In this document: positions 2,740 to 39,465 of the stretch, piece after piece
Position numbering within the stretch: position 1 is the stretch's first letter
How the letters are laid out: each line of letters starts with the position of its first letter
Virus record (IMG/VR): IMGVR_UViG_3300031952_000044
Coordinates: 1 to 41,623 of that record
Source: a virus
Direction: 5' to 3' (one strand)
DNA: 41,623 bases
The notes under the pieces: generated by a model
Databases searched by the model: none
Seen by the model: only the letters and a program-made list of their open reading frames with translations
What the model was told of the DNA's origin: nothing
Position numbers and translations under genes: made by a program

Positions 2740-3936
2740 ATGATGCCTGTGAGGTTTATTGACCTTTTTGCAGGCGTAGGTGGTTTTCACATTGGACTCG
2801 AACGAGCAGGAAACTTTGAATGCGTCTGGGCAAACGAATGGGACAAGTACGCTGCCAGCATTTATCGAGACAGGTTCCCTGGAACAAACTTCAATGGCGC
2901 TGACATTAGAAAAATTGAACCAGAGTGGATTCCAGAGTTTGACTTGCTCGTTGGAGGCTTTCCATGCCAGGCTTTCTCAGTTGCTGGAAAACGGCGCGGA
3001 TTTGACGATACAAGAGGAACAATGTTTTTTGAAATTGCTCGGATTCTTAAAGCCAAGAGACCAAGGCTCGTGTTGCTTGAGAACGTCAAAGGACTCCTCA
3101 ATCATGATGCAGGAAGAACTTTTGAAACGATTATCAGTACGTTGGATGAATTGGGGTATAATGTTGAATGGCAGGTGCTTAACAGCAAGGATTTTGGCGT
3201 TCCCCAAAACAGGGAGCGTGTGTTCATTGTCGGGCATCTTAGAGGAATCAGTTCATCCCCGATATTTCCTCTCACAGAAATTCAAGGAATACATACTGAG
3301 GCATACGAAGAATCCTCGAATATTGCACAAGCCCTCACTGCAACAGACTTCAAAGGACCAAGCAAACAAAGGAGCAACATCGTGTTAGAAGAAATAACAA
3401 GCGGATTGGGTGATGCACAACGAGTTTATGCTGAGAATGGTTTGGCAAGGACTTTGAAAGGAAACAGTGGGGGGCAAGGCGGCAAAACAGGGCTTTATAG
3501 CGTGGCATACAGGACTCGGACTCTACAGGGCTTGCCGGGGCGCATCGAGCAAAGGAAAGACAAAATCGCAAACCAATTAACAACCGTACCCAAAGACAGC
3601 ATGATTGTTGTCCACAACCTGCAGCCTCGTTCTCCCGACAGACCTTCCTTAAAATACTCTCATGGCGGAAGCGGTCATTTGACAAAACAAGACGGTTCGA
3701 CTTACTGTTTGGATAGTGGAAATGCCCAAGCAATCGAACTCCAAGGCTCAATAAGACGTTTAACTCCGCGCGAATGCGAACGCTTACAAGGATTTCCTGA
3801 CGATTGGACACTCAACAGACTCGTTTCTTTGAAAAAAGATATGGCTGACAATCAGCGTTACAAAATGCTTGGAAACGCAGTCACAACAAACGTCATAACA
3901 GCAATCGGCAAAAGAATCCTGGAGGTTGGCGCATGA
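2740..3936 (+). CDS. dcm: DNA (cytosine-5) methyltransferase
   Basis: Transfers a methyl group from S-adenosylmethionine to C5 of cytosine in a specific DNA site. Canonical motifs appear in order: motif I FAGVGGF (10-16), motif IV GGFPCQAFS with catalytic C76, motif VI ENV (114-116), motif VIII QNRER (156-160), motif IX RRLTPRECERLQGF (near 340) and motif X RYKMLGNAV (near 373). The target-recognition region is about residues 200-330. At 398 aa it is full length. ATGs at 2740 and 2743 both fit the promoter. No restriction enzyme is adjacent, so it is an orphan enzyme that may protect viral DNA from host restriction. Confidence 0.95.
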   Translation: MMPVRFIDLFAGVGGFHIGLERAGNFECVWANEWDKYAASIYRDRFPGTNFNGADIRKIEPEWIPEFDLLVGGFPCQAFSVAGKRRGFDDTRGTMFFEIARILKAKRPRLVLLENVKGLLNHDAGRTFETIISTLDELGYNVEWQVLNSKDFGVPQNRERVFIVGHLRGISSSPIFPLTEIQGIHTEAYEESSNIAQALTATDFKGPSKQRSNIVLEEITSGLGDAQRVYAENGLARTLKGNSGGQGGKTGLYSVAYRTRTLQGLPGRIEQRKDKIANQLTTVPKDSMIVVHNLQPRSPDRPSLKYSHGGSGHLTKQDGSTYCLDSGNAQAIELQGSIRRLTPRECERLQGFPDDWTLNRLVSLKKDMADNQRYKMLGNAVTTNVITAIGKRILEVGA

Positions 3937-6488: not shown

Positions 6489-6518
6489 GTTTTTATACAA
6501 GATAAAGTATAAGAAGGG
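6489..6518 (+). promoter_or_regulatory. Composite late promoter before portal gene
   Basis: TATA block GTTTTTATACAAG (6489-6501) plus second block GTATAAGAAGGG (6507-6518). ATG 6525 is 36 nt from the start of the TATA block, so the leader is at most a few nucleotides. One of the best copies of the motif that recurs before late genes. Confidence 0.7.
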
Positions 6519-6524
6519 AACTGC

Positions 6525-9251
6525 ATGCCAGCTAATTTTAAGGACCGAAACAGCGAGATTTTTTATCCTTCAAAACAAAAAACCGGTTTGGCAATAGAAA
6601 ATCACCCCCAGATTGTGCCAAAAGAAATTCCTGCTGAAAGCCGGGGCAATGCCTTTCCTCTGGTCACGTGGAGCGACCCGTTTGGAGTCGGACTGCAAAA
6701 ACAATTGCATCCCTATTACGGAGTTGTTTCCGGCGTCTACTACGCTATGACTGGAATGCCCTGGCTTTCAGCTGACGCAAGAAAAGCTGTCAAGACCGAA
6801 TGGTTTTGGCAGCCGATTAGGGGACAACCTAGAAGAGTTGACACGAACGAACTCAGAAAGTATGCGAATACTGTTTGGATACAATCCATTGTAATGACGA
6901 TTCAAAAACAGATATCTAATGTGCCTTGGGACATCGTGCCATTGGACGAAGAAACTTCTTATGAAGAAGTCGCTGATGAAATAGACAGAGTCAAAGAATT
7001 TTTCAAGCATCCGAACAAGAACAATGAGAGTTGGAATGACATCGTGAGTGCTTGGGTCAAGGATATTGAAGAAATCGACGCGGGTGTCTTGGTAAAAGTC
7101 TACACAATGGATTCTTACGATTTCGAGCATTTGGAGCCGAGAAGCGGAGCGCCTTTGTTAAAACCGCTTGTTTGCCCGGAGTGCATGGGAAACAAAAAGA
7201 CTAATTCTGCTCTTGCACAAGGCAAGGCAATGAGAGTAATCGAAGCCATTTTCAAAGCCGAAACTGGTTTGCCAAAAGAATACGAGCACAAGATAATTGG
7301 CGGCGAAGCCGAAGTCACAGAAAAATACAAGCTCTTAAAGCCTGATTATGACCAAATGAGGGAAAAAATGATGCAAGTGGTTTCCGCGAACAGCACAGGC
7401 GATGAAAACACTGTGGATATCGAGTGCCCTTTTTGCAATGGAACAGGCAAAGGCAGGCAAATAACCGAAGTCTATTGCTTTGACGGAGCAAGCTTTTTGA
7501 AAGATTGTGACAGGACTGGTTGGAATTACGGTTACTGGCAATACTCTTACGCGATTCCAGCTCATCCGATGTGGTTCAATCGTGACGAAATAATTTATTA
7601 CATGGCGAACCCGAGAGGATTCAGTGTTTATGGTTACGCGCCAATGCAATCAAGCCTCGAGTTAGTCAAGAGCCTCGAGTATAGCGTCAAGCACAACATG
7701 GCATTGTTTTTGGATGGAGCAGTGCCGGATGGAATAGTTGGAATCGAAGACATGAGCGACGCGGAACTCACGAGAATGAAGACCGCTTGGGAAAACGAAT
7801 TAAAGGGCCAGCCCCACAAAGTGCTTTTTTTGAACAAAAAAACGACTTTTAGCCCGTTTGCTTTCAACAACAGGGACATGCAATTCTTGGAAGGCCAGAA
7901 ACAAACTTGGTTACAGGTAATGGCAAACTTTGGGGTAGGGCCAACAGATCTTGGAATCTTTGAGGATGTAAACAGGGCCACAGCAGGAAGCGCTGCGGAG
8001 ACTGGAAGAAGGAAAGCAATAAGGCCTATTCTCAAGAAAATCGAGGATATGATTAATGTTCAACTCATGCCTGACTTGGGAGCAAAAAAAACCAAGTTCG
8101 CTTACATTGTCGACGATCCTGTTGAAGAAAGAATGAAAGCAGAATTAAACGAGATTTACCTTCGAAGCGGATTGAAGAGCGTGAACGAGATAAGAATAGA
8201 AGACGGTTTGCCCCCGGTTTCTTGGGGCGACGGGCCAAGCAACCCAATGCAAAGAATCGGCCTTGAAGGAGAAAAGCCTGGTGAAGTTCAAGGAATCCAG
8301 GACACCGAGGATGCTGCAGAAGAAGGACCAAAGGATTCAAAAGAAAAAGCGGCTTTCAACTCGCACATTCCTTTCATTACAACGATCCAGAACCTGAGCA
8401 CGCCATTGTCTTTTGCGGTTCCAAGAAGCGGGCATCCGAACTCGCAGTATCCTTACAATTCAATGAGCGGAATCTGCCCGGGATGCGGGAAAGCAGGACT
8501 GATGCCTATTGGAGAGGATCCAAGTGGAGTATCAATTGCAAGGGCTTATTTGTGCAATTTTTGTGGAAGAAAGTATAATGAGGAAGAACTTGCAACAGCT
8601 GAATCCGAACAAGCAAAGATGCATTCGGCAGGCGAAAGAACTGATCCTTTCAAGCGACCGCAAAGAATTGACGAGGCAACCCGCGACATTTTAGCGGGTT
8701 CCGCGCAAACCATGACTCCTACTGCTCCGGATCCGAATCTCACGCCTACGGTTGCTCCGCGCAAAAAGAAAGTTGAGCCTGACTTAAAAAAAAAAGTCGA
8801 GCCATTAGCACCAGTTTTTCTTGATACTTGGGTGGGATTCCAAACAGCGCCCTTGTTTGCTTTTGTGGCAAGGTTCCTGCAAAATTATGACTTCGGGCTC
8901 GTGACAGGATCGAACAAGAAAAGAAGCGCTCTGAGAAGCATTTTTGAGGACGCTTTCACGAACGGCATGAACCTGCATCAGCTCGCGGGAGAAATCGAGT
9001 CAGCGGGATTCGACAAAATAAGCGCTGATGCGATAGCGCGGACAGAAACAATCAGAATAGCGAATGAAGCAAAACTCTTGCAGGCAGAAGCGAATGGTTA
9101 CAAAAAAGTTATTTTTGTAGCGACCCATGACAAGCATGTGTGCGAGGAATGCGCTGCTCTTGACGGCAAGATAATGGGTGTTGAGAAAGCAAAGGGGTTG
9201 ATTCCCGTGCACCCGAATTGCAGATGCACTTACCGGATGGTGGTTGAATGA
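6525..9251 (+). CDS. Portal protein fused to MuF-type head morphogenesis domain (908 aa)
   Basis: Residues about 40-580 look like a portal: helices and the VMANFGVGPTDLG ... NRATA stretch (465-487) typical of phage portals. The C-terminus (about 770-908) is a phage Mu gpF-like minor head domain: IARTETIRIANEAKL, then C873/C876 and HPNCRCTY (896-903). Two zinc-knuckle pairs interrupt it: C217/C220 with C301/C304 (DnaJ-like CPFCNGTGKG), and C651/C654 with C677/C680. The linker 690-765 is Pro/Lys-rich. The two functions are usually separate genes, and the fusion would tether one MuF domain per portal subunit. It follows terL with its own promoter. Confidence 0.85.
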   Translation: MPANFKDRNSEIFYPSKQKTGLAIENHPQIVPKEIPAESRGNAFPLVTWSDPFGVGLQKQLHPYYGVVSGVYYAMTGMPWLSADARKAVKTEWFWQPIRGQPRRVDTNELRKYANTVWIQSIVMTIQKQISNVPWDIVPLDEETSYEEVADEIDRVKEFFKHPNKNNESWNDIVSAWVKDIEEIDAGVLVKVYTMDSYDFEHLEPRSGAPLLKPLVCPECMGNKKTNSALAQGKAMRVIEAIFKAETGLPKEYEHKIIGGEAEVTEKYKLLKPDYDQMREKMMQVVSANSTGDENTVDIECPFCNGTGKGRQITEVYCFDGASFLKDCDRTGWNYGYWQYSYAIPAHPMWFNRDEIIYYMANPRGFSVYGYAPMQSSLELVKSLEYSVKHNMALFLDGAVPDGIVGIEDMSDAELTRMKTAWENELKGQPHKVLFLNKKTTFSPFAFNNRDMQFLEGQKQTWLQVMANFGVGPTDLGIFEDVNRATAGSAAETGRRKAIRPILKKIEDMINVQLMPDLGAKKTKFAYIVDDPVEERMKAELNEIYLRSGLKSVNEIRIEDGLPPVSWGDGPSNPMQRIGLEGEKPGEVQGIQDTEDAAEEGPKDSKEKAAFNSHIPFITTIQNLSTPLSFAVPRSGHPNSQYPYNSMSGICPGCGKAGLMPIGEDPSGVSIARAYLCNFCGRKYNEEELATAESEQAKMHSAGERTDPFKRPQRIDEATRDILAGSAQTMTPTAPDPNLTPTVAPRKKKVEPDLKKKVEPLAPVFLDTWVGFQTAPLFAFVARFLQNYDFGLVTGSNKKRSALRSIFEDAFTNGMNLHQLAGEIESAGFDKISADAIARTETIRIANEAKLLQAEANGYKKVIFVATHDKHVCEECAALDGKIMGVEKAKGLIPVHPNCRCTYRMVVE

Positions 9252-16478: not shown

Positions 16479-16507
16479 TTTCATTCATAAGATTGATAGG
16501 TGATTTT

Positions 16508-16960
16508 ATGAATGAAACACAAAAAGCCTATTGGGCAGGATTCGTAGATGGTGAAGGAAGCATAGGGATAATGAAAACAAAAAGCTCGCACTTTTTGAGA
16601 ATAACTATCTCTCAAAATAAAAAATATATAGTTGAAGAAGCAAAGGAGGAATTTGGATTTGGTTCTGTTGGCAGTAGCACAGCAAGAGAAAGAAAAATTA
16701 ATGGAATAATAACTTCAAAAAAAACCGTGATGTGGTATTGGAATACGACAACAAATCAAGCAGAAGAAGTTTTGAAATTGCTTTTGCCATATTTGAGAAT
16801 AAAAAAGAACCAAGCTCTTTTGGCATTGCAATTTCAAAAATACAAAAGGAAAACCACTGTCAGAGGCCAAAAGAAAGGCGGTGGATATCAATCAATGAGT
16901 AAAGAAGTGTTAAACAAAAGAGAAAGTTTCAAACAAGAAATTTCAAAATTAAATAATTAA
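16508..16960 (+). CDS. Free-standing LAGLIDADG homing endonuclease (150 aa)
   Basis: Residues 8-18 (YWAGFVDGEGS) are a clear LAGLIDADG dodecapeptide with the catalytic Asp/Glu. A single motif in 150 aa implies a homodimer that cuts a long target. ATG 16508 follows AGGTGAT, better than the TTG at 16493. The gene is more AT-rich than its neighbours and splits the structural operon, so it is a selfish insertion that spreads by cleaving alleles lacking it. Confidence 0.85.
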   Translation: MNETQKAYWAGFVDGEGSIGIMKTKSSHFLRITISQNKKYIVEEAKEEFGFGSVGSSTARERKINGIITSKKTVMWYWNTTTNQAEEVLKLLLPYLRIKKNQALLALQFQKYKRKTTVRGQKKGGGYQSMSKEVLNKRESFKQEISKLNN

Positions 16961-17374: not shown

Positions 17375-17847
17375 AATTAATTAAGATGAAAATAAAGCGG
17401 ACTGAAGAGAATGGAAGAACGCATTACGATTATCCGAGTGCTTACAAAGCCGAACTCGTGAAATTCGGGCCAATCTATGAAAGCGCTTTGCCAGAGAATC
17501 TTGCGATAGTTTCTGCCAGGGGAAACAAGGACGAGTTTATTTTGTTTGGAGTTGAAGACAAGGCTGCACAAGTTTTTCTTTCTTCTCAAGGCGTTTTTGA
17601 AAAAGCGTTTTCTTTTGAAGCCCAAGAAATAACTGAAGAAGCTGCAAAACAAATTGGGAGTTCTTGGACAAGGCAGACTGAGAAGATAACTGATGAAGCC
17701 AAAGTTATTCAGATTCTTGCCAAAGTAGCAAGGAACGAGCAGCTTACTCAAGCCGAAAAAGACGCTTTGGATCCGAATAAACCAGAATCAGGAATAAGTT
17801 TGTCAAAGTCTTTCGAGGCGTATTTGAATGAGTTTCTGGGAAAATAA
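17371..17847 (+). CDS. Hypothetical protein (158 aa)
   Basis: A GTG start at 17371, with AAAGGAGGA upstream, overlaps the previous TGA. The first 95 residues are alpha/beta; the C-terminus (about 110-158) is helical with VIQILAKVARNEQLTQAEKDAL, a short helix-turn-helix-like pattern seen at the ends of phage tail-associated proteins. Function unknown. Confidence 0.55.
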   Translation: MKLIKMKIKRTEENGRTHYDYPSAYKAELVKFGPIYESALPENLAIVSARGNKDEFILFGVEDKAAQVFLSSQGVFEKAFSFEAQEITEEAAKQIGSSWTRQTEKITDEAKVIQILAKVARNEQLTQAEKDALDPNKPESGISLSKSFEAYLNEFLGK

Positions 17848-18340
17848 GGTTGTTACTACGGATGACGTTTGCTTGCATAACCTTTGCTATTGGGCTTATT
17901 GGGATGAATTGAAAAAAGCGTTTCCAGAACTCAAAGTGATTGCTTTCACTGTTGCTGATTGGGGAAACAAAGAGAATGTTTCAGATAGCCAAGAGTTCAA
18001 GAACTGGTTTGAGGAAAGAAAAGACTGGGTGCAAATAGGCGTGCATGGATATGACCATCTTTACCCGCCTGAGTGTGAAAGGGATAACCAAGAAGAATTT
18101 ATTGCAAGGGCTTTGGGTGTTTTAAAGTCTTTTTTGCCAGAAAAATTTTTGTATCGCGCGCCTGGTTTTCAGGTCACGAATCAAACCGAACCGATTTTGA
18201 AAAAACTTGGTTTTGCGGGAATTGCTCATCAGGGGCGAATAAAGTTTTTTGACGGAAGATTTGTTGAAACTTTTGACACGCATTGCAGTGGCAAGGGCGT
18301 TAATCCTATTGCGGAGGTGTCTAAATGTTTAGCATTGTGA
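17828..18340 (+). CDS. Polysaccharide deacetylase-like protein (170 aa)
   Basis: NodB/CE4-like motifs are visible: the TDD metal-base segment (residues 11-13), the metal-binding GVHGYDH (71-77, giving H73 and H77), and RAPGF (110-114). These fit a metal-dependent deacetylase that removes acetyl groups from N-acetyl sugars, on a host surface polysaccharide or on virion glycans. At 170 aa it is shorter than typical CE4 domains (about 200). It starts inside the previous gene and overlaps the glycosyltransferase start. Confidence 0.7.
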   Translation: MSFWENKVVTTDDVCLHNLCYWAYWDELKKAFPELKVIAFTVADWGNKENVSDSQEFKNWFEERKDWVQIGVHGYDHLYPPECERDNQEEFIARALGVLKSFLPEKFLYRAPGFQVTNQTEPILKKLGFAGIAHQGRIKFFDGRFVETFDTHCSGKGVNPIAEVSKCLAL

Positions 18341-19647
18341 TGCCAGTGAAAGACAATGCGGTAATAACTCGCGTGGCAATAGAAAGCATAAAAAACTATA
18401 CAACTGAGCCATACGAGTTAATCGTAGTGAACGATGGAAGCAAAGAAGAAACAACAGAATACTTGCGTTCTCTGCAGGGCATTTCACTCATTGAGAACAA
18501 AGAAAGCCAGGGCTGGTGCAAGGCAATAAACCAGGGAATTGAAAAAGCGAGAGGAGAGTTTGTTGTCTTTTCCAACAACGATGTCGTAGTAACGCCTGGG
18601 TGGGACAAGGGAATGCTCTTGCATTTTGATGTTGACAAGAGCCTTGGGGTTCTCGGGCCTGTTTCAAGTAGCGTTAATGGATTTCAGCACATAGACTATA
18701 ATAGAGAAGGCGTTGATTTCCAGTATTCTGATTCTCTCATGTTTTTTTTTACAATGGTTCGCAAAGAAACAATTGACAAAATCGGGGGGCTTGACGAACG
18801 ATTTGGAATCGGGGGACAAGACGATGCCGATTATTGTATTCGCGCAAAGCAGGTTGGTTGGAAAGTTGGAATTGCAAGAAACGTTTTCGTTTACCATTAC
18901 GGCAGCATGACTTACAGGGACATTTTTCACAACAATGCAAAGGCTTCTGTTGAGTTTGCGAATTCAAGGCAAAAAATTTTGTTGGAAAAGTATGGGGGAA
19001 ATCCTTTTAAGAAAAAAAAGGTTTTTATTGCGATTCCGAATCTTGGAACAATTGTTCCAGAGCTTGCCACGAATTTGTTGCAGTGGACTCACGATGATAG
19101 GTTTGATACAAAGGTTTTCATGCCAAAAAATCTTCAACCTGAAACAGTGGCTCGGAATACTTGTGTAAAGAGTTTTTTGGAAAGCGATTGCGATTACTTG
19201 TTGTGGATTGATGATGACGTTTTTTGCCCGCCAGAAACTTTGTACAGGTTAATTGAACATGACAAGGATGTTGTCGGTGCAGTAGTTTTCGCTTTGAAAT
19301 TTGACAAGAATGAAGTTTTTTCTTACCCAGTTACTCTGCGTTACAATGAAGAAAAAGAATACAAAGCGTTTTATGGAAAAGGCTTGGAAGAAGTGGATGC
19401 AACAGGCAGCGCTTGTGTCTTATTTAAAAGAAAAGTCTTTGAACACAAGGAGCTTGAAACGCCTTACGAATTCCAGTTTCACAAAGACGGGACTCTTGTC
19501 TTGACTTGTGATTTTTCTTTGATGCAAAAGGTTCAAAAAGCAGGTTTCAAAATATTCGTGGACTTTGATTTGATTTGCTCTCATATAAAAGGAGTGGATT
19601 TAAAATTGTTGAACAACTTGCTGGCGAGGATGAAAAATGGCGAATAA
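18325..19647 (+). CDS. Double-domain family 2-type glycosyltransferase (440 aa)
   Basis: The first domain (1-215) is a GT2 fold: FSIVMPVKDN, VVNDGS (34-39), SNNDV (83-87, DXD-like) and GGQDDADYCIRAKQ (163-175). After a short linker a second GT-A domain (232-430) begins with FIAIPNLG, then VARNTCV (275-281) and the DXD motif WIDDDV (294-299). Both would transfer sugars from nucleotide donors, probably in series. No membrane span is seen. It sits in a tail/fibre operon with the deacetylase, which implies virion or host-surface glycan modification. Confidence 0.8.
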   Translation: MFSIVMPVKDNAVITRVAIESIKNYTTEPYELIVVNDGSKEETTEYLRSLQGISLIENKESQGWCKAINQGIEKARGEFVVFSNNDVVVTPGWDKGMLLHFDVDKSLGVLGPVSSSVNGFQHIDYNREGVDFQYSDSLMFFFTMVRKETIDKIGGLDERFGIGGQDDADYCIRAKQVGWKVGIARNVFVYHYGSMTYRDIFHNNAKASVEFANSRQKILLEKYGGNPFKKKKVFIAIPNLGTIVPELATNLLQWTHDDRFDTKVFMPKNLQPETVARNTCVKSFLESDCDYLLWIDDDVFCPPETLYRLIEHDKDVVGAVVFALKFDKNEVFSYPVTLRYNEEKEYKAFYGKGLEEVDATGSACVLFKRKVFEHKELETPYEFQFHKDGTLVLTCDFSLMQKVQKAGFKIFVDFDLICSHIKGVDLKLLNNLLARMKNGE

Positions 19648-32083: not shown

Positions 32084-32258
32084 GGCAAGTTGTTCTGAGA
32101 AAGCGATTGCACGGGCCCAGTTCTTGCGAGAGCAGGGGCGAGGGGACCTCGTCCTTGTGCTCATCGCTGTGGAGAGATTCATGAGAAAAAAGCGGTTTTT
32201 TTTTGTTTTTACAGGGCTTTTTTTTGTAGGCATAGCAGTCTTTTTTTATTTCCAGTGA
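32064..32258 (+). CDS. Possible small membrane-anchored protein (64 aa)
   Basis: A GTG-started frame overlaps the preceding gene by 20 nt. The first 40 residues are charged and helical (ARAQFLREQGRGDLVLVLIAVERF), followed by a basic stop-transfer and one span (FFFVFTGLFFVGIAVFFYF). The frame lacks a clear ribosome site and is followed by poly-T tracts. A shorter start is ATG 32181. Confidence 0.35.
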   Translation: MQSRLSKASCSEKAIARAQFLREQGRGDLVLVLIAVERFMRKKRFFFVFTGLFFVGIAVFFYFQ

Positions 32259-32288
32259 CAAGACTTTTAAGTGGGGGCTTAAAAGTCT
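32196..32288 (+). terminator. Poly-T tracts and hairpin ending the late operon
   Basis: T-runs at 32196-32204, 32206-32210, 32218-32225 and 32241-32247, the kind of signal used by archaeal RNA polymerase, are followed by a perfect 11-bp hairpin AGACTTTTAAG (32261-32271) / CTTAAAAGTCT (32278-32288). This is the most probable end of the late transcripts. Confidence 0.6.
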
Positions 32289-32352
32289 GTGATTGACGAA
32301 ATGAATCCGATTCGTCAAAATGGTCTGAAAAAACATAAAAGCACGATTTTGG

Positions 32353-32386
32353 GGCTTTTAAGTGGGGGCTTAAATCAGAATTAAGC
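32353..32386 (+). repeat. Iteron-like direct repeat, copy 1 (34 bp)
   Basis: Reads GGCTTTTAAG, TGGGGGCTTAAATCAG, AATTAAGC. It matches the second copy at 32473-32506 in 31 of 34 positions (by eye). It contains the internal inverted repeat TTTAAG/CTTAAA. Confidence 0.65.
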
Positions 32387-32472
32387 GTTTAATTAAATCT
32401 GTATAGGTGTCGGATGGGTGAATTTGGCAGCAGAAGCAATACAATGGCTTTACAAGGCAATTCTCTTTTTTT

Positions 32473-32506
32473 GGCTTTTAAGCGGGTGCTTAAATCAGAG
32501 TTAAGC
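32473..32506 (+). repeat. Iteron-like direct repeat, copy 2 (34 bp)
   Basis: Reads GGCTTTTAAG, CGGGTGCTTAAATCAG, AGTTAAGC, 120 bp from copy 1. It contains a 7-bp inverted repeat TTTAAGC/GCTTAAA and GCTTAA/TTAAGC. Confidence 0.65.
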
Positions 32507-32544
32507 AAAGGTATTTAAGCAAGGTAATCGGTATTAGATTGCCA

Positions 32545-32590
32545 AATCTGTTTTTTTAAAAAAGAATGATTTGAATCTGTTTTTTTAAAA
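32545..32590 (+). repeat. Paired 17-bp direct repeat
   Basis: AATCTGTTTTTTTAAAA at 32545-32561 and 32574-32590, with a related TTTTTTAAAAC at 32662-32672 that is also the TATA-like box before the next gene. The repeats may be protein-binding sites or promoter duplicates. Confidence 0.5.
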
Positions 32591-32658
32591 CTTTTTTTTG
32601 CATCCGGGAAACGAAGAACCAGGCAATGCAGTAGGATTTAATTAATTGCTTAAATGTC

Positions 32659-32672
32659 GGGTTTTTTAAAAC
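32659..32672 (+). promoter_or_regulatory. TATA-like promoter of the early operon
   Basis: GGGTTTTTTAAAAC lies 30 nt before the start of ATG 32689, so the transcript would be leaderless. It lacks the second late block, in keeping with an early promoter. Confidence 0.45.
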
Positions 32673-32688
32673 GTACCGCTGTAGTTAG

Positions 32689-34945: not shown

Positions 34946-35458
34946 ATGAAAGGAATATACCAGGGAGCAAAAGAAATAACGCTCCTGAAAGAAGGAACAA
35001 ACAAAAAGGGCCAAGCCTGGTTTTTGTACGGAACTAACTTGGAAGTAAGCGGGGAAACGTTCGGGCTTGCAGCATTTTCAAAAAGCGAACTCGAAGAGAA
35101 AATAAAAAAGTTGAAGCCAGGAATGCAGATTGAATTTGAAACCACTGAAAAAGGCGGCTACAAGAATGTCCAGCAGGACACAGAAATAAAGATTGTAGCA
35201 GAGGCAATTGCGAACTATGCGCCACCGGCAAAGCCAATGCAGCCGATAGCAGTGCAGGCCCAGGTGAAGAAGCCGACAATCGCGTTCATGACGGACGACG
35301 AGGTCTTCAAGCTCATGGATAGTTGCATCAAGGCCGTGAACGACAGCCTATCGAAACAGAACATAGTAGTTCAGTCCCTGGAAGAAACCACGACAATGAT
35401 TAACTCGGTTTTCATTGCCTGCAGGGAAGAACGCAAGGGGGCAAGACGATGGGAATAG
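34946..35458 (+). CDS. ssb: OB-fold single-strand DNA-binding-like protein (170 aa)
   Basis: GGAGG (34934-34938) precedes ATG. The N-terminal 85 residues look like an OB fold: strand ITLLKEGTNKKGQAWFLYGTNL, strand with TFGLAAFSKSELEE, LKPGMQIEFETTEKGGY and NVQQDTEIKIV; a helical C-terminal tail follows. This fits a replication-associated SSB. Assignment by fold impression. Confidence 0.6.
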   Translation: MKGIYQGAKEITLLKEGTNKKGQAWFLYGTNLEVSGETFGLAAFSKSELEEKIKKLKPGMQIEFETTEKGGYKNVQQDTEIKIVAEAIANYAPPAKPMQPIAVQAQVKKPTIAFMTDDEVFKLMDSCIKAVNDSLSKQNIVVQSLEETTTMINSVFIACREERKGARRWE

Positions 35459-36735
35459 AAGAAACACTGAAAGTCGAGGAAATATCCTTCAACCTTTTCA
35501 ATCCAAACAAAATGTCGGAGGAGAAGTACGCTGCGCTGAAGGAATCAATCTTGCAGGATGGGATACAGCAGCCCGTCATTGTCCGAAAAGTGGCGGACGA
35601 CCTGTACGAATTGATTGACGGAGAGAATAGGATTCGGATTGCGAAAGAACTCAAAATCCAGAACGTCAAGGCATTGGTCAAGTCAGCCGTCAAAGACGCG
35701 GACGCAATGCGACTCTGCTACAAAATCAACGCGGACAGGGGGATGCTCGACTGCTTCAAGGAAGGAATCTTTTTTGACCTCCTGAGGCAGACAGGCCTGG
35801 ACACAAAAGGCATCTCGAAAGAATATGGCCTGAGCGAGCAATTCGTCAAAGACAGGATGACACTGCTCACAATCAGAGAGGATGAGAAGGAACTCCTGAT
35901 TAAGAAGGTCGCAAAGGATGCGGAGCTTGATGGGACGCACTGGTTGGCTTACGCAAAGGCAAAGCCGGAAGTCAGGATTGAACTCTGCAAAACCATCGGG
36001 AGGTTTGGAAAAATCTCATTTAGGGACATAGAAGATCAGGCCAGGAGAGCGGAAGGCGAAATAAAGCAGCGCAAAGAATTTGAGGAAACGCTGGAAAAAG
36101 CAGAGTTCAAGACCTGCCCAAAATGCAAAGGCAAGGCAACAGGCCTGGACTGGAGAAAGCACCTCAAATGCGCGCAATACCACGACTGGGATTCAAAGAC
36201 AGGCAAATCCGAACAGGAAACAATAGGCGGAAGCTACAACAAGACAGAGAAGCAAAAAAAGCCCAAGTTCAGGAGAAACTTGGAAATAGAAATCGATTGG
36301 CCCAGGGCTTACAATGACGCGCAGGAATTCGTCCTCAAGAATCTTGGCGAAATAAACTCAATTTCCTTCACGGACAAAAACAAGAAAGACTGGAACCTGA
36401 GCATGTCGAGGGACAAGGACTTCGGCCACATAAGCATCAGGCGCGAACACGAAACGGAATTCCAACTCGTCAGGAATTACAGGGGAAAAGATGGATCATC
36501 CGTCTGCGGCCCTGCAGCAGGGGAAATAACGAAGAAGGATTACGAGGGAATGCTGCAACTCGTCAAGCAGTTCAAAGGCAAAGTAATCGACAAGCGGATA
36601 GAGAAGAAAGAAACAAAGAAGGCAGTCTGCAAGAAATGCGGCAAGCCTTTTTCAGAACAAGAGAAAAAAGCTGGTTGGAAAATCTGCGAACATTGCGAAG
36701 CAAAAAAGGCGGCGAAAAAGAAGGTGGTTAAGTGA
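35449..36735 (+). CDS. ParB-domain protein with HTH and zinc ribbons (428 aa)
   Basis: A ParB N-terminal domain (residues about 8-100: LFNPNKM, LKESILQDGIQQPVIV, and DGENRIRIAKEL) is followed by a helix-turn-helix (near 115-140, TKGISKEYGLSEQFVKDRM). The second half contains a CPKC...CAQYHDW zinc-like site (near 224-245), a domain of unknown fold, and a C-terminal CKKCGKPF ... CEHC ribbon. It resembles KorB/Noc-type DNA binders with extra nucleic-acid-binding ends. It may act in partition, replication or gene control. Confidence 0.75.
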   Translation: MGIEETLKVEEISFNLFNPNKMSEEKYAALKESILQDGIQQPVIVRKVADDLYELIDGENRIRIAKELKIQNVKALVKSAVKDADAMRLCYKINADRGMLDCFKEGIFFDLLRQTGLDTKGISKEYGLSEQFVKDRMTLLTIREDEKELLIKKVAKDAELDGTHWLAYAKAKPEVRIELCKTIGRFGKISFRDIEDQARRAEGEIKQRKEFEETLEKAEFKTCPKCKGKATGLDWRKHLKCAQYHDWDSKTGKSEQETIGGSYNKTEKQKKPKFRRNLEIEIDWPRAYNDAQEFVLKNLGEINSISFTDKNKKDWNLSMSRDKDFGHISIRREHETEFQLVRNYRGKDGSSVCGPAAGEITKKDYEGMLQLVKQFKGKVIDKRIEKKETKKAVCKKCGKPFSEQEKKAGWKICEHCEAKKAAKKKVVK

Positions 36736-37394
36736 ACGAATTGCGGATAACAAAAAAGGATTTGGATGAAAACAATTTTTTCAAAGAAGACGGAATAGAT
36801 TTTGATGGAAACGTTTTCTTTGAAGAAAATCTTGGCGTGGTTCGTTTCAAAAAAACTGTCAAGGCGACTGGAAGCATAACGGCTTCGGTTGGATGTGGCA
36901 TCAAGGCTGGATGGGACATCGAGGCTGGAAATGGCATCGAGGCTGGAAATGGCATCGAGGCTGGATGGGGCATCAAGGCTGGAGATGGTATCAAGGCTGG
37001 ATGGAGTATCGAAGCTGGAAATGGCATCGAGGCTGGATGGGGCATCGAGGCTGGATGGGGCATCGAGGCTGGATGGGACATCAAGGCTGGAAGTGGCATC
37101 AAGGCTGGAAGTGGCATCAAGGCTGGAAGTGGCATCGAGGCTGGATATGGCATCAAGGCTGGAATGTCAATTATCTGCAACGGATTGCTAAAATTCTCCT
37201 GCAATTTGTTTGCAGGCACGGCAACTTGGAAAAAAACAAGTGAAGAAGAACAAATTGTGGAATGCTCGAAACTTGAAGGAACCATTGTTTTCGGCAAACT
37301 CAGGCTCATAGAACAAGAGAAAGAATCTGAAAAAGAAAAGCGCATTAAAGAACTTGAAGTAGAATTGAAAAAATTGAAAGAGGAAAAGGCATGA
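36732..37394 (+). CDS. Beta-helix (hexapeptide-repeat) protein with coiled-coil tail (220 aa)
   Basis: Residues 55-144 are 15 tandem hexapeptides of pattern x-(G/S/D)-I-(E/K)-A-G, which should wind into a beta-helix, and a Cys pair follows. The C-terminus (190-220) is a coiled coil. A capping N-terminal domain precedes the repeats. ATG overlaps the ParB stop. Such 6-residue solenoids occur in phage and bacterial proteins of unknown function. It may be a regulator or a virion protein, but the early location argues against a fibre. Confidence 0.65.
   Translation: MNELRITKKDLDENNFFKEDGIDFDGNVFFEENLGVVRFKKTVKATGSITASVGCGIKAGWDIEAGNGIEAGNGIEAGWGIKAGDGIKAGWSIEAGNGIEAGWGIEAGWGIEAGWDIKAGSGIKAGSGIKAGSGIEAGYGIKAGMSIICNGLLKFSCNLFAGTATWKKTSEEEQIVECSKLEGTIVFGKLRLIEQEKESEKEKRIKELEVELKKLKEEKA
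36894..37163 (+). repeat. 18-bp tandem coding repeat, 15 copies
   Basis: Units of the form GGCATCGAGGCTGGATGG are repeated head to tail, with substitutions mainly at codons for residues 1 and 4 of the hexapeptide. All three forward frames stay open through the array, a by-product of the unit. Such arrays expand and contract by slippage. Confidence 0.8.
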
Positions 37395-37492
37395 ACAGGA
37401 AACTCGTAGAACACGAACGCTGCGGGATTTGCGGATTGCGGACAAGGTTTCCGCAATCCCATTACTTAGACAGACACAGAGGGAAAACATGA
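37391..37492 (+). CDS. C2H2-type zinc-finger mini protein (33 aa)
   Basis: ATG 37391 comes after GAGGAAAAGGC and its stop overlaps the next ATG. C11-x2-C14-x9-H24-x4-H29 matches a C2H2 finger with a slightly short spacer; flanking residues are basic. It may bind nucleic acid. Supported by coupling at its 3' end and motif. Confidence 0.5.
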   Translation: MNRKLVEHERCGICGLRTRFPQSHYLDRHRGKT

Positions 37493-37815
37493 GTAACTTA
37501 ATTGTCACAAATATGTGTTTTCAAGGCAAAGCTCCTTTCAAAGGCATTCTTGATTACAATAAGGTTTTGAAGAAAAGCAAGTTTTTTTGGATGACTCTTA
37601 ATGAAGAAATAGCTCCTTTTTTACAATTGAAAATAGGCAAGGATGGAAACACACACCCAAAAATAAAGACGGGTTGCATTTCAATTTGGAAAAATGGTTC
37701 AGTCTGCATTGTGGGCGTAAAAAGCAGGAAAGAAGCAGAGGCTTGCTATCAATTTGCACTCAGCGAAATCAAAGGTTGCCAATTCTTATCAAAAAAAGCA
37801 CATGGAGGAAGATAA
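37489..37815 (+). CDS. TBP-like protein with one TBP repeat (108 aa)
   Basis: ATG 37489 overlaps the preceding stop. Residues 60-80 (TGCISIWKNGSVCIVGVKS) line up with the most conserved strand-turn-strand of the TATA-binding protein repeat (a-L-I-F-S-S-G-K-x-V-x-T-G-A-K-S), followed by the helix KEAEACYQFALSEI. The N-terminal IVTNMCFQGK and LDYNKVL fit the first strand and helix. Trp67 replaces the intercalating Phe and F44 may be the other one. Archaeal TBP has two such repeats; here there is one, so DNA bending would require a dimer. Assigned by pattern. Confidence 0.6.
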   Translation: MSNLIVTNMCFQGKAPFKGILDYNKVLKKSKFFWMTLNEEIAPFLQLKIGKDGNTHPKIKTGCISIWKNGSVCIVGVKSRKEAEACYQFALSEIKGCQFLSKKAHGGR

Positions 37816-37967
37816 TGCCGAGGATTCAATGCGGAAGAATTGACTGCTTTTTTTTGAAAGCAAACTGCGGAGGAAATTACTGCACAAAATCTACGGTAGT
37901 TCTCGATACGAAAGGAAATTGTCTTGACTGGCTTTATGCAAGAACAACAAAGGATGTGAAGAAATGA
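37815..37967 (+). CDS. Cysteine-rich mini protein, DUF1540-like (50 aa)
   Basis: ATG shares a base with the TAA of the TBP-like gene. Cysteines at 6, 11, 18, 23 and 35 in the pattern C-x4-C-x6-C-G-x-N-Y-C match the DUF1540 metal-binding core and the paralogue at 1386. The stop overlaps the next ATG (ATGA). Probably a metal-binding peptide. Role unknown. Confidence 0.55.
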   Translation: MPRIQCGRIDCFFLKANCGGNYCTKSTVVLDTKGNCLDWLYARTTKDVKK

Positions 37968-38626
37968 CACCGGAAGAAAAAGTCCTGATGCTGAAAGCCC
38001 AATGCTTGCTACACCCAGAGATTCCAAAGGAAGTCCTCGAGGAGAATATGAAGCATGCTGATTTTGTAATGAAAAAAATGGAAGAAATACTCGCCTACAC
38101 TAAGGCATTGACGGATGAGAAACAAGTGTATTCTATAAAAGCCATGGTTCTCGGCCAGTTACTCGACAGTGTTCCGAATGGAGAAAGAATCGCGTTTTTG
38201 GATTCTGCCCTGCAGGACTTGGTTTATTCAAACAAAAACATGGCTACGAGTTTTGACTTGCTCGAAAGGTTGAAGGTTGAGGAAAACAGTGCTTACAATC
38301 ACAAATCAGACAACAGCGCTTACACTCACGATTTTCCATCTCATGAAGCGGAATTGAGGCGAAAAAGAATGAGTTATGATGGTGGACAAGATTCAGTTGC
38401 TGATGGGACGTGGGAAGACGGGTATGAACGAGGCAGAGAAGACGAAAACAAAAGATGCCTAAAAGAAATAAAAAAAATGTTCATGGGAAGCTCATTTGAA
38501 AGTTTACCGGCAAAAATAATGTCAGAGTCAGCCAATCAAGTTTATTGTATTGGTTGTCAAGACACAGAAGCAGTTTGGGAAGACAAAGTTCAAAAATTAA
38601 GAAAGCTTTTGGAGGCAGGCAAATGA
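37964..38626 (+). CDS. Helical hypothetical protein (220 aa)
   Basis: ATGA overlap. The N-terminal 100 residues are helical (PEEKVLMLKAQCLLHPEIPK, MKKMEEILAYTKALTDEKQ); a charged loop (YDGGQDSVADGTWEDGYERG, residues near 130) and a C-terminal helix with CIGC (residues about 197-200) follow. No family is recognised. Confidence 0.55.
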   Translation: MTPEEKVLMLKAQCLLHPEIPKEVLEENMKHADFVMKKMEEILAYTKALTDEKQVYSIKAMVLGQLLDSVPNGERIAFLDSALQDLVYSNKNMATSFDLLERLKVEENSAYNHKSDNSAYTHDFPSHEAELRRKRMSYDGGQDSVADGTWEDGYERGREDENKRCLKEIKKMFMGSSFESLPAKIMSESANQVYCIGCQDTEAVWEDKVQKLRKLLEAGK

Positions 38627-39159
38627 TTAGGCGATTGATTTCAAGAAAGACAATCGAAGCTGCTCGAAAGTTTGCTGAGAAAGTTTACAGGCTCCGCCAT
38701 GCAAACGCAGACAAGTTTTTACAAGGCGATGAGTTCAAGGCAGACGTCAAGGGATTCGAGGTCGAGTTTGCCAATTGCGAGGTTTTTAATTTGCCAAAAC
38801 CGGAAATTCACGAAGGCCGGGAAGTCGACCAATTCGATTGCTATCTTGCGGTACCTAATGAGAACGGATTGCTACAGGCTCTGAGATTTGACGTCAAGAC
38901 GTCCAGCGATTTTCTCATCAACAAGAAGCAGTTTGAGCACAAGGGCATTGATGCCTATTTGTTCGAAGAGATGGAGTTCCTCAGTTGGGAAACCAATGCG
39001 ATTTTCGTCAAGATTTTTGGTTGGATAAGAAAGCAGGATGTTGTTGCCAATAGTGAGCTGAAGAAGTTTGATAATGGGAGCGAGGCTTATGCCGTGAATC
39101 CAAGGGCTTTGAAGAATCCAAAAGATTTGTTCGGCTTGACTTATGCAGGAGGCGCTTGA
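38623..39159 (+). CDS. PD-(D/E)XK nuclease-like protein (178 aa)
   Basis: ATG 38623 overlaps the previous stop, with GGAGGC upstream. Acidic-strand pattern: GFEVEFANCEVF (E48), DQFDCYLAV (D72), RFDVKTSSDF (D90-x-K92) and a helix with KKQFEHKG. This fits the restriction-endonuclease fold, so a DNA-cutting or repair enzyme is plausible. Assigned by pattern only; a Holliday-junction or MTase-partner role is unproven. Confidence 0.5.
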   Translation: MIRRLISRKTIEAARKFAEKVYRLRHANADKFLQGDEFKADVKGFEVEFANCEVFNLPKPEIHEGREVDQFDCYLAVPNENGLLQALRFDVKTSSDFLINKKQFEHKGIDAYLFEEMEFLSWETNAIFVKIFGWIRKQDVVANSELKKFDNGSEAYAVNPRALKNPKDLFGLTYAGGA

Positions 39160-39465
39160 ATGAAGATTGAAGGAATAGACATCTTGTGCGATTCGGATTT
39201 CGAGAACGCATTGCTCATGAAAGTCAGCAGGATAATGGGCATCTTGGGTTTGGCACAAGACATCGTCGGAAAGTACCAGAATTATATCAGGCAGGATATG
39301 GCTATCATAAAGGACGGAAAAAATCCGAACGGAGTCGTGGCAGCCAGAATCTACCAGATTTGCCTTATTAGCAACAATGCGCGAACGCAACAAGTTATTG
39401 CGGAAGCTGCTGGAACTTCAGCAGAAACAGTTAGACATATTTTTCACAAAATGATTGAGAGGTGA
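39160..39465 (+). CDS. TFB/TFIIB-like protein with one cyclin repeat (101 aa)
   Basis: The stretch GKNPNGVVAARIYQICLI (53-70), RTQQVIAEAAG (75-85) and TSAETVRHIFHKM (86-98) aligns with the second cyclin repeat of archaeal TFB (G-K-x-P-x-G-L/I-x-A-A-A-x-Y ... R-T-Q-x-E-x-A-x-x-A-x-V-T-E-x-T-V-R-x-x-Y-K), the part holding the BRE-recognition helix-turn-helix. Residues 20-50 fit the first helices of the fold. There is no N-terminal zinc ribbon, B-reader or first repeat. It may redirect host polymerase or compete with TFB. Assigned by pattern. Confidence 0.65.
   Translation: MKIEGIDILCDSDFENALLMKVSRIMGILGLAQDIVGKYQNYIRQDMAIIKDGKNPNGVVAARIYQICLISNNARTQQVIAEAAGTSAETVRHIFHKMIER

Follow-up and report, generated by a model that had tools for sequence, protein, structure and literature searches.

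Archaeal viruses depend on the RNA polymerase (RNAP) of their hosts, and little is known about the means by which they redirect it. In factors of the TFB family, the second cyclin fold reads the BRE and the zinc ribbon and linker serve RNAP, and the non-canonical TFB paralogue TFB3 can act in trans (PMC7289017). A TFB has been recorded in the archaeal virus family Aoguangviridae (PMC10768690), and thaumarchaeal integrative-conjugative elements encode a TFIIB beside ParB (PMC6563490). Viral pairs of TBP and TFIIB have been described in dsDNA viruses (PMC7221094) and as poxvirus VITF-3 (PMC12917281), and the plant TFIIB-like proteins AtBRP3 and AtBRP5 have a single cyclin fold (PMC7865254). For archaeal viruses, repressor sites overlapping the BRE have been proposed (PMC11065993). 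That archaeal mobile elements can carry TFBs is not new; what is new in the locus described here is the one-repeat form.

The window, that is, the whole stretch of DNA that we analysed, is a linear IMG/VR virus record of 41,623 bases. It encodes a 101-aa protein that, as judged by sequence comparison, shares homology with the second repeat of TFB along its whole length (Table 1). The gene is an intact, well-initiated operon gene with a strong Shine-Dalgarno sequence and sits among tightly spaced or overlapping genes in one gene run. When scored against the codon usage of this virus's long genes, the ORF reached +0.19 in its coding frame versus -0.65 and -0.51 in the shifted frames.

Table 1. 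Coordinates of the one-repeat TFB-like gene, its parts and associated features in the window.
Feature	Position	Strand	Basis or remarks
One-repeat TFB-like gene	39160..39465	+	ATG start, TGA stop, 101 aa; PF00382 above cut-off
Complete TFB second-type cyclin repeat, residues 19-101	39214..39462	+	HMM alignments; AlphaFold2 helices
HTH of repeat, residues 77-100, equivalent to BRE-reading HTH of TFB	39388..39459	+	45-sequence alignment, model
AlphaFold2 helices of TFB-like protein	residues 6-29, 34-38, 40-51, 56-70, 77-84, 88-100
Shine-Dalgarno AGGAGG	39147..39152	+	7 nt 5' of ATG of TFB-like gene; read from sequence
Preceding operon gene, 178 aa	38623..39159	+	Stop codon abuts ATG of TFB-like gene; no family match
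Following gene, 272 aa	39471..40289	+	N-terminal part charged; C-terminal winged-HTH matches weak, all below cut-off
Single-lobe TBP-like protein, 108 aa (tentative)	37489..37815	+	PF00352 below cut-off; model
ParB-like protein gene	35449..36735	+	PF02195 55.5 bits; upstream, same gene run as TFB-like gene
Non-coding region, 605 bp, before accessory genes	32084..32688		Three 40-nt elements (32256, 32347, 32467), three T7A4-like elements

A reading made earlier from the sequence only had matched residues 53-98 to the second cyclin repeat of TFB and had proposed a PF00382 profile search as a check. That search gave 29.0 bits (E 1.1e-6), above the gathering score of 23.6 bits, and no second Pfam family exceeded its cut-off in the 101-aa protein (HTH_Crp_2, 16.6 versus 27; Sigma70_r4, 15.2 versus 24.1). 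The NCBIfam TFIIB model PRK00423 aligned protein residues 22-100 with model positions 225-304 of 312, which form the C-terminal repeat (E 3e-9); the score is under the cut-off that this model sets for full-length proteins, which is normal for a fragment. The top sequence match in the PDB was P. woesei TFB (E 1e-7), with 26 bits for the second repeat and 7 bits for the first, and tblastn against cellular TFBs aligned residues 19/22-101, with approximately 30-37% identity among the top-ranking rows. An HMM of repeat 2, for which 44 cellular TFBs but not the viral protein were used, scored 51.2 bits on the latter, compared with 19.2 bits for the repeat-1 HMM; the best of approximately 1000 shuffles reached 12.6 and 6.7 bits, respectively. 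The proposed match to the second repeat was therefore borne out, and its span proved wider, at about residues 19-101.

Residues that are invariant in a 45-sequence alignment were retained in all eight columns of the viral protein (G53, P56, G58, Y65, T76, Q77, T90 and R92); Q77, T90 and R92 belong to the HTH, and T76 lies just before it. Among the differences from TFB, E89 stands where TFBs have V, just before the T-V/I-R that is conserved in the recognition helix, and H93 replaces a conserved N. We take the E89 position to be that of V283 in human TFIIB, a BRE contact, and R92 to be human R286. Because of E89 at the V283 equivalent and of H93 in place of N, BRE specificity may have been changed or lost. 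The AlphaFold2 model, whose input alignment consisted of 44 TFB second repeats and which is thus not independent of TFB, had a pLDDT of 83.2, a pTM of 0.75 and six helices, and the predicted fold is a cyclin fold. Its top Foldseek matches were nearly all TFIIB, TFB or Brf, and VIA-align superposed it on 1d3u_B with a Z of 13.4 and 1.9 A over 95 residues, the superposed part being the first repeat of 1d3u_B. Since both TFB repeats share the cyclin fold, fold alone cannot separate them. Prediction and superposition, likewise proposed as checks, thus agreed on a cyclin fold with TFIIB/TFB as best match, TFB relatives being present in the alignment. Neither a better match to a non-TFB HTH family nor a missing cyclin fold was seen, and the TFB reading stands.

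The zinc ribbon, B-reader and first repeat had been reported as missing, and our scans agreed. Neither the ORF nor the in-frame sequence upstream of it contained a zinc ribbon, other Cys-rich part, B-reader or linker, and the protein gave no Zn_Ribbon_TF match. The 101 residues contain no first cyclin repeat; on the rest of the contig the repeat-1 HMM found nothing, and HMM searching yielded no further TFB repeat 2. The 600 nt upstream of the gene held no TFB remnant in any forward frame. The record is linear, and a full-length viral TFB may lie beyond the contig ends. Because the defining parts of a TFB are absent, we class the product as a TFB-CTD-derived single-repeat protein and not as a TFB.

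We then consider how widespread this form is. Peptide patterns retrieved no close relatives from IMG/VR or GTDB contigs, tblastn against phage records gave nothing significant (E 9), and no one-repeat orthologue was found in these three sets. With a first degenerate DNA pattern for TFB repeat 2, 17 of 18 IMG/VR matches were true TFBs with two repeats; two such scans of IMG/VR returned 17 other records with true TFBs, of canonical architecture where complete (one, L012, extends to the limit of the stretch retrieved, and another, L013, is truncated there with only repeat 2 visible). The matches L019 and L020 were rejected as TFBs, being by eye portal-like and transposase-like, respectively. Annotated TFIIB-family proteins of haloarchaeal plasmids measured 271-416 aa (n=5 inspected). 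Cellular loci, of which 49 out of 80 were inspected, were full-length with three exceptions: two lay at the edge of a contig, and the frame of L093 was short, which we took as a frameshift. Among the matches listed for 371 Nanobdellota genomes, the TFB frames were full-length (approximately 305-350 aa, or more), except for a frame of 186 aa. Since the viral and archaeal TFBs that we inspected had their full length or owed a shorter one to truncation, the one-repeat form seems to be rare. A literature search found no published one-repeat TFB of an archaeal virus, an absence that is not proof.

Two other contigs deserve mention. On the 150-kb contig IMGVR_UViG_3300027845_000169, genes for a TFB and a two-lobe TBP, each of full length, occur together, so viral capture of the two factors has a precedent; the TBP of contig L146 is identical to the one encoded there. 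A 36-kb virus-like contig in a Nanobdellota bin (L136:13922-14314; G061:C163) carries a 131-aa ORF whose N-terminus is RHH/VapB-antitoxin-like (27.1 bits against a cut-off of 27.9) and whose C-terminus holds a weak TFIIB-like repeat (PF00382, 17.4 bits, cut-off 23.6). From its sequence this fusion may be a further case in which a virus has reused a TFB repeat, and no relative of it was found in the 371 Nanobdellota genomes.

A TBP-like gene had been placed 1.3 kb from the TFB-like gene. The distance was confirmed (1.34 kb, from 37815 to 39160), but the TBP assignment is weaker than the earlier wording implied. PF00352 scored 20.1 bits (E 6e-4) and did not reach its cut-off of 22.9, and HMMs of the archaeal TBP N- and C-lobes gave 5.6 and 6.4 bits, with best shuffles higher at 9.1 and 8.9. 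The model (pLDDT 71), with viral TBPs in its alignment, follows the strand and helix order of a TBP lobe, and it superposed on M. jannaschii TBP with a Z of 10.8 and 1.9 A over 81 residues, TBPs being part of the model's alignment. The 108 residues hold one lobe and no two-lobe saddle, and we tentatively regard the product as a candidate single TBP lobe, no more. In a Woesearchaeota genome (G046:C28:13768-14010), a TBP match was also seen in an open frame of just 129 aa, possibly shortened by a contig edge or a frameshift, besides the normal two-lobe TBP.

The rest of the record points to a tailed, Caudoviricetes-type virus that likely infects an archaeal host. It carries the Caudoviricetes hallmark genes for terminase (phrog_2), portal (phrog_2662) and an HK97-type major head protein (phrog_25898). 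Capsid relatives on IMG/VR contigs share 64-77% identity. Others were found in 2 of 371 Nanobdellota bins (38%, and 43-49% in segments), one of them on a 36-kb contig that is possibly mis-binned, and, weakly (22-28%), in 4 of 295 genomes of the Methanocorpusculum phylum; there were none in 245 Micrarchaeota-phylum or 115 Aenigmatarchaeota-phylum genomes. Portal and capsid also resemble their counterparts in haloarchaeal tailed viruses. No TFB or TBP match was present in 14 viral records sharing the capsid protein, and the accessory region has almost no counterpart in capsid-sharing viral contigs. The window gave no tRNA or Rfam matches, and no viral RNAP was seen in it.

The non-coding region before the accessory genes contains 40-nt repeats of the GCTTTTAAGTGGGGGCTTAAA type, and the copy at 32256-32295 is palindromic. 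It is a possible regulatory region, operator or origin and, by position only, a possible target of the TFB-like protein. In pattern scans, the BRE/TATA promoter pattern was not enriched over shuffles, and a TATA-type pattern was modestly enriched (15 versus 7.8 expected from shuffles). TATA-like sites lie at 6490 and 14989. Elsewhere, the window encodes a C-5 cytosine-specific DNA methylase (2740-3936; PF00145, 313.7 bits), an ORF containing 'AYWAGFVDGEGSIGI' that by eye looks like a LAGLIDADG homing endonuclease (16493-16960), and, among the structural genes, two adjacent genes that by eye are polysaccharide deacetylase-like and glycosyltransferase-like (17828-19647). The protein encoded at 36732-37394 consists of repeated GIEAGWGIKAG-type units, and L136 has a similar repeat-rich ORF region (8276-9051).

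From its sequence, we propose with about an even chance that the protein is a TFB-CTD-derived promoter-binding regulator, chiefly a competitor that keeps host TFB out. It would bind promoter DNA through the retained HTH, at a BRE-like or a viral operator sequence, and alone would be unable to recruit RNAP; its action would be promoter-selective, with the TFB site occupied and host TFB excluded, and it may have a partner in the TBP-like protein or in the winged-HTH protein encoded next to it. The trans action of TFB3 (PMC7289017) and the BRE-overlapping repressor sites proposed for archaeal viruses (PMC11065993) speak for such a role. A competitor or modulator fits because the DNA-reading part is kept and the RNAP-recruiting and B-reader parts are absent; with DNA binding predicted and no known route to RNAP recruitment, such a role is favoured. 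Autonomous initiation is unlikely because nothing in the protein docks RNAP or opens DNA by a known route. Of the roles offered by the sequence-only reading, that of competitor therefore agrees with the anatomy, as a predicted role; that of reduced initiation factor is poorly supported, and nothing supports a takeover of host RNAP. In complete TFB, both repeats cooperate with each other and with TBP, and an isolated repeat may bind DNA weakly.

It is possible, if doubtful, that the repeat has instead been repurposed as an ordinary viral operator-binding regulator, unrelated to the BRE or host TFB and perhaps directed at the repeats at 32256-32506. The changed recognition-helix residues, E89 and H93, would suit such a protein, as would the repeated palindrome-like elements before the accessory genes and the joining of an RHH (VapB-antitoxin-like) domain to a weak TFIIB-like repeat in the distantly related virus contig L136; however, the fold as a whole and residues R92, T76 and Q77 have been preserved in a way that would suit the ancestral DNA contacts, and the tie to the 32-kb repeats is positional only. 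An improbable reading is that the TFB-like protein and the TBP-like lobe form a miniature viral complex for promoter recognition, through which host RNAP is brought to viral promoters. Two one-repeat versions of mutually touching factors do lie 1.3 kb apart in one gene run, TBP/TFIIB pairs are known from other viruses (PMC7221094, PMC12917281), and full-length TFB and TBP occur together on one IMG/VR contig. Against this, the TBP-like protein scored below the Pfam cut-off and, with the archaeal lobe HMMs, did not rise above shuffles, and neither protein has an RNAP-recruiting module. The contact Arg and Thr of TFIIB, which presumably lie in the first repeat, are absent here, and this too counts against a complex. 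Those residues have been named (PMC7221094). That half a TFB and half a TBP, both cut to one repeat and possibly acting as dimers, make up a minimal viral promoter-recognition module is decidedly improbable; if true, the module would be an experimental model for single-repeat ancestors of TBP and TFB.

Two-thirds of TFB are gone and no orthologue appeared in the searches made, as might be expected if the gene were the functionless remains of a full-length TFB gene that was captured and then decayed. We consider this very unlikely: the ORF is clean and has a start codon and AGGAGG of its own, the genes around it are tightly arranged, codon usage favours the coding frame, the invariant residues are conserved, and the 600 nt upstream are free of TFB remnants in any forward frame. 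Chance likeness of an unrelated HTH protein can draw on the unspecific nature of an HTH alone, since the degenerate HTH-level pattern also matched a transposase-like gene (L020). Here, however, the full repeat is matched, far above the best shuffle (51.2 versus 12.6 bits), and PF00382 is the sole Pfam family above cut-off; the full-length profile match refutes chance likeness for practical purposes.

Viral evolution can take TFB apart, as this one-repeat protein shows, and a stand-alone C-terminal repeat would be a natural test of what the repeat can do by itself, from BRE reading to TFB blocking. The protein shares the second cyclin repeat, its HTH, fold and invariant residues with archaeal TFB and eukaryotic TFIIB (PF00382; P. 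woesei TFB, 1d3u), but has 101 residues instead of approximately 310, lacks the zinc ribbon, B-reader, linker and first repeat, and carries E89 in its recognition helix. TFB3 is the reverse of the viral protein, in that its N-terminal part is retained and proper cyclin repeats are missing. In Sulfolobus this non-canonical paralogue acts in trans with the canonical TFB (PMC7289017); a trans role here is a proposal. The TFBs of Aoguangviridae, haloarchaeal plasmids and IMG/VR records L002-L018 are, as here, TFB-family proteins on mobile elements, but those read from plasmids and IMG/VR are full-length, have both repeats or are truncated where the retrieved stretch ends, unlike the one-repeat form. 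The thaumarchaeal elements likewise combine a TFB relative with a nearby ParB-like gene, although their TFIIB homologues are not described as single-repeat (PMC6563490) and ParB lies several genes upstream here. AtBRP3 and AtBRP5 also have one cyclin fold, but they keep the linker (and in BRP3 the zinc ribbon) and are eukaryotic and non-viral. Finally, VITF-3 and the viral TBP/TFIIB-like pairs are, like the present protein, virus-encoded and strongly diverged factors; they are, however, larger proteins, VITF-3 working with a virus-encoded RNAP, whereas the virus described here encodes single domains.
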